NCBI GenBank assembly: GCA_029637525.1 | Contig: CP072660.1 | Coordinates: 1,141,612-1,205,611, forward strand | Source of the DNA: Desulfurococcaceae archaeon MEX13E-LK6-19 | GTDB lineage: Archaea > Thermoproteota > Thermoprotei_A > Sulfolobales > Desulfurococcaceae | DNA: 64,000 nt | Direction: 5' to 3' | Part shown: piece by piece, positions 55,680 through 55,993 of the stretch | How positions within the stretch are numbered: the stretch's first letter is position 1 | Layout of the letters: every line of letters begins with the position of its first letter | Translations under genes and position numbers: made by a program | The notes under the pieces: model-generated | The model's input: the letters and a program-made list of their open reading frames with translations, nothing else | The model's database searches: none | What the model was told of the DNA's origin: nothing

Positions 55680-55784
55680 TAGATAACACCAAACCCGGTA
55701 TTCTCCTACTAGACATAACTATCTTTTAGATCAGTCAGTCTGGCCTACATTATATATTAAGGTTGCTAGAGCAGAAAATATACT

Positions 55785-55892
55785 TGGATAGGGCCCCAGG
55801 GACACCGCGGAGTCAACCGCGTTTCTGGGATGACCTGGGGAGCCTTGCGGCCGCCTGTTCTCTTACTCAGTCCCAGTAGATACTATTTTTGC
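55785..55892 (+). ncRNA. GC-rich structured RNA candidate, independently promoted
   Basis: A block of roughly 95 bases of high GC content interrupts AT-rich intergenic DNA. It has no open frame. CCCCAGG (55794-55800) pairs exactly with CCTGGGG (55834-55840). Nested inside, CGCGG (55806-55810) pairs with CCGCG (55817-55821) around a six-base loop. GGGAC (55799-55803) could instead pair with GTCCC (55870-55874). A TATA element, TTATATATTAA, lies at about 55750-55760, 25-30 bases before the expected 5' end, and an ATTTTT run at about 55885-55890 could terminate. High GC in non-coding DNA of hyperthermophiles usually marks stable RNA. It is not a tRNA, 5S or obvious C/D-box RNA; its class is unknown. 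Confidence 0.6.
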
Positions 55893-55993
55893 AAATTAAT
55901 GTGGCTAGGTATGTAGCTATGTTGTATGTGTTGGCTAGTAGTGGTGTTGCTACAAGCCTTGCGTGGTTTAAGTAATTCTATGAGCAGTCTTCG

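Follow-up and report, generated by a model that had tools for sequence, protein, structure and literature searches.

A GC-rich intergenic block in the 64,000-nucleotide stretch of archaeal DNA analysed here (henceforth the window) is likely the gene for an H/ACA-like guide RNA of ~80 nt. The RNA is predicted to be transcribed, to bind protein and to direct the pseudouridylation of a single U in helix 27 of 16S rRNA. We read it as an H/ACA-like guide because of its architecture, its relatives and its complementarity to the 16S rRNA. The preliminary description had offered two readings, an H/ACA guide and a new stable RNA, and the analysis supports both. The RNA has no Rfam entry; it represents a known kind of RNA but forms a new family.

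The block lies in the intergenic gap 55680-55993, and both flanking ORFs are on the opposite (minus) strand. Its G+C content is 52–53% over 55750-55899, compared with ~35–40% in the surroundings, as expected from its earlier description as GC-rich in AT-rich DNA. The covariance search against Rfam that the preliminary description had suggested was run on the window and on the loci, and no family matched this RNA. A search for tRNA and tmRNA genes found none, and none of the aligned members has a CUGA (D box) after its guide arm. The absence of a tRNA or C/D pattern reported earlier was thus confirmed, and a C/D box sRNA was ruled out.

BLASTN found one relative of the RNA, and a pattern search identified 13 genomes that carry it. 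We built a covariance model (R1) from 12 of these 13 genomes and ran it over the order; in the window it matches 55785-55865 with 80.3 bits. Counting only RNAs with the same guide arm, the RNA is present in 21 genomes from three families of the order, plus three genomes that belong to a different class of the phylum. The carriers are Desulfurococcaceae/Pyrodictiaceae-like genomes and the members of that other class, and the distribution within the order is patchy. A pattern scan of the whole collection returned, among the matches listed, mostly chance bacterial ones and one Pyrolobus MAG. The genes that flank the RNA vary between relatives, which suggests that it acts on its own. We considered whether it could instead act in cis on an adjacent gene, as a riboswitch or leader, given that genus g4 has a same-strand gene immediately downstream of it. 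This is extremely unlikely, because neither window flanking ORF shares its strand, the downstream gene in Pyrolobus is antisense and the contexts vary.

A TATA box (TATATATTA, 55751-55759, plus strand) whose position at about −42 from the stem is conserved supports transcription of the RNA in its own right. When TATA scores were computed over 20 relatives, the maximum fell at −42 from the stem, with a mean of 2.51 (the best of 500 shuffled sets reached 1.7). A TATA box at the right distance upstream had been claimed earlier, and this claim was borne out. The position of the peak places the predicted 5′ end near 55781. By homology, the 3′ end is probably near 55862, within the pyrimidine stretch GTTCTCTT. 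The preliminary description had also assigned the RNA a terminator of its own. The T-run in question is present at 55886-55890, but the RNA probably does not end there. The predicted gene spans 55781..55862 on the plus strand, with ends deduced from the R1 match, the TATA distance and the pyrimidine-rich 3′ side.

The seven-pair outer stem and the five-pair inner hairpin noted previously are both present. The outer stem (GA stem) is formed by CCCCAGG (55794-55800) and CCTGGGG (55834-55840), and the apical hairpin CGCGG-AGTCAA-CCGCG (55806-55821) by pairing of 55806-55810 with 55817-55821, all on the plus strand. The same strand carries a k-turn-like motif. Its non-bulged strand reads GA then C (55801-55803; (G/U/A)A(C/G) in relatives), and its bulged strand reads GAU (L1-L3) then GA (55829-55833), within a GGGATGA that is conserved in relatives. 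At the sequence level, the tandem GA and GAU bulge of an embedded k-turn are therefore in place and conserved, with an extra 1–2 nt between the stem and the GA in some members and a weak C-stem. In the window RNA, the GA stem comprises 10 layers: the seven pairs, the bottom G.A and the two GA pairs.

We assessed the structure by covariation in 20 sequences, using an alignment that was fitted to the covariance model and so favours the structure. Across the whole structure, 84.8% of cells are paired, 44 are double-change cells and the covariation score is 0.345. None of 500 shuffles reached any of these three values, and versions of the structure that were slid out of register scored ≤0.143 each. 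In the GA stem, 88.6% of cells are paired and four of the seven pairs show double changes. The double change from CCCCAGG/CCTGGGG to CCCCCGT/ACGGGGG is visible in the raw sequences. Compensatory changes, the absence of which had been named as evidence against the RNA, were thus looked for and found. The folding energy of 55780-55892 does not set the block apart from shuffles (z = −0.33). The minimum free energy fold of the single sequence is a different one (−35 versus −21 kcal/mol for the conserved fold), and this alternative is not kept in relatives. Because folding energy is uninformative, the case rests on comparison with relatives. It is conservation, namely the 80-bit matches and covariation beyond that of all 500 shuffles, that lifts the block above chance.

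The 3′ side of the RNA carries the guide GCCTTGCGGCCG (55842-55853, plus strand), a perfect 12-nt complement of 16S helix 27 that is separated by 8 nt from the k-turn TGA. The arm, GCCUUGCGGCCG, is invariant among the relatives with this RNA and is the exact complement of CGGCCGCAAGGC in helix 27 of the same genome, where the next nucleotides are UG. This puts the predicted target U at 16S position 870, in register after the 5′ duplex. We take U870 to correspond to about U905 of E. coli. The spacing between the k-turn TGA and the arm is always exactly 8 nt, including in the three relatives from the other class, whose stem is unrelated. A literature search turned up no record of pseudouridine at this position of the 16S rRNA. 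The energy of the duplex between the arm and the 16S rRNA is −25.9 kcal/mol, far past the cut-off of −6 kcal/mol used for such guides (PMC4652768). A 3′ duplex is absent or consists of one pair in the members tested, and it is absent in the window copy.

The arm forms a small hairpin of its own (−3.5 kcal/mol) and the target is a stable hairpin. The self-folding of the arm would fit a stable structured RNA with another job, whose match to helix 27 would be a coincidence of the GC-rich hairpin GCC-UUGC-GGC. However, a 12-nt match was reached by none of 3000 shuffled arms and by none of 3000 GC-rich 15-mers of the window. In the two other-class relatives tested, the complement is lengthened to 14 and 17 nt before the U, past the hairpin, as measured against the 16S rRNA of the window genome and not their own. 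Other RNA families also bear on this question. Families L067, L069/L077 and L070 have 12–18-nt complements in 16S rRNA, each with the same 8-nt spacing and each followed by UG, although the search was run without requiring a U at the target place. Their predicted sites are near 1001 (L067), at 1348/1560 (L069/L077) and at 474 (L070, matched against the 16S rRNA of the window genome and not its own). The best of them is L069, which matches GCGCGGTGAATACGTCCC followed by TG in its own 16S rRNA. That these families match other sites in 16S rRNA with different arms, yet keep the register, argues against coincidence. In its favour, the related RNAs B and C carry other arms; B has no convincing rRNA match at the right spacing, and C has only a 9–10-nt rRNA complement, in a neighbouring register. 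Taken together, we consider a coincidental match very unlikely.

A universal 3′ arm was rejected, given the other arms of RNAs B and C, and we therefore treat these two as separate guides. L087 is also among the sibling RNAs with a single long arm (12–18 nt against 16S rRNA, UG at the target place). In the window genome, L078 pairs on both sides of its site, with a 12-nt 3′ duplex and a 6-nt 5′ duplex at 23S position 937, so a two-sided guide is present in this genome too.

The assignment to H/ACA-like guides was first suggested by L045, a weaker relative from the same order. It matches the Pyrobaculum family PyrR205 (Rfam RF02803, box H/ACA) end to end, with 30.9 bits against a gathering threshold of 35.6. 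Three genomes (G015, G024 and G030) of the family to which the window belongs have PyrR205 matches that pass gathering. The window RNA itself matches neither RF02803 nor any other Rfam family at gathering, and PyrR205 matches sibling RNAs only. H/ACA-like guides consist of a hairpin with a k-turn and lack the lower stem; productive folds need a 10-layer GA stem, with 8–13 layers seen, and the target U stands directly after the 5′ duplex (PMC4652768). In this class, a UN stays unpaired when the guide arm binds rRNA or tRNA, and pseudouridine is made by the RNP with L7Ae, Cbf5, Nop10 and Gar1. Like Pyrobaculum sR203-sR210 (e.g., RF02803 PyrR205; PMC4652768), the family described here has a single stem with a k-turn motif, lacks a lower stem and carries single-stranded guide arms and a degenerate ANA/NCA box ~15 nt from the stem. 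It differs from them in its guide arm, its predicted target in 16S helix 27 and its one-sided 12-nt guide. Whereas H/ACA-like motifs were described as Pyrobaculum-specific (PMC4652768), the window RNA occurs in Desulfurococcaceae/Pyrodictiaceae-like genomes and in another class.

The ANA or degenerate NCA box usually lies 14–15 nt after the stem in H/ACA-like guides (PMC4652768). It is present at +15 in 12 of the 20 members (as AUA, CCA, GCA or UCA), and the window copy has no such box at +14 or +15 (GUU at +15; GTT at 55857-55859, plus strand). The box is not obligatory, being absent from 14% of known members, and members without any box have been reported (PMC4652768), so its absence does not bar membership. 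No lower stem is conserved in the alignment, and partial pairing of GGACCCG with CGGATCC was seen only in family f6. A canonical H/ACA sRNA was ruled out, as there is no conserved 7–9 bp lower stem closing the pocket and followed by ACA. The window RNA shares with canonical archaeal H/ACA sRNAs (Pyrococcus Pa19, Pa35 and Pa105, among others) the 10-layer GA stem, the k-turn motif and the placement of the target U, which immediately follows the 5′ duplex. Unlike them, the window copy is without the 7–9 bp lower stem, the ANA box and the 3′ duplex.

We propose that the free-standing H/ACA-like RNA would be bound by L7Ae at the stem with the k-turn-like motif and so placed on Cbf5-Nop10-Gar1. The single-stranded 3′ arm would open helix 27 of the 16S precursor and form the 12-bp duplex, leaving the next nucleotide, U870, in the active site of Cbf5 for conversion to pseudouridine. 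Such a guide would work almost entirely via its 5′ duplex, the usual 3′ duplex being missing. A Cbf5 gene is present in the window genome. It appears as two pieces separated by a short gap (G000:C1:507443-508434, locus L214), as expected for the cbf5 intron of archaea (PMC2738675).

The main rival explanation is that the H/ACA-like RNP binds helix 27 without modifying it, serving either as a chaperone for folding or as a processing factor. In favour of such a role, the arm is invariant, and it is a long, one-sided antisense to a hairpin that would need opening, with no 3′ duplex; there are also precedents. snR30 is an H/ACA RNA that guides no pseudouridylation (PMC7601244), and yeast U3 binds the 5′ arm of h27 in the 90S particle (PMC5354517), so that U3 and the window RNA would contact the same helix. 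Like snR30/U17 and U3, the window RNA would pair with small-subunit rRNA independently of a paired pocket. It has no sequence or architectural homology to these RNAs, and it has the register of a modifying guide: the U is exactly in place, as it is in three unrelated sibling guides. Moreover, one base pair can be enough for a productive 3′ duplex (PMC4652768), and the patchy distribution speaks against an essential processing factor. We therefore regard a purely chaperone-like role as unlikely. A broader proposal has only a small chance of being correct in our estimation: that one-sided H/ACA-like guides are widespread in Thermoproteota, with a single 12–18-nt arm replacing the two-sided pocket, and that the window RNA also chaperones helix 27.

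As a modifying guide, the RNA would form an unrecorded family whose predicted target is precise: h27, the decoding-site helix of 16S rRNA, would carry a pseudouridine. The RNA also indicates that H/ACA-like guides without a lower stem are not confined to Pyrobaculum; a single long arm is found in at least four families that recur across the order. Should single-arm guidance prove real, the target rules used for predicting archaeal pseudouridines would need revision.

In genome G083, which encodes the guide as well, the 16S gene (L057) is interrupted just after CGGCCGCAAGGCTGAAA by a short intron-like insertion, a few nucleotides downstream of the predicted target U. Independence from a 3′ duplex could allow a guide to act on this 16S rRNA before splicing. 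Locus L071 is at G000:C1:63251-63329 on the minus strand. A further guide-like RNA (L041, L044, L050 and L081) has the arm TTCCGTCGGG, which is complementary over 9–10 nt to the window genome's 16S rRNA around position 718; UG follows this site, and the spacing is 9 nt, not 8.
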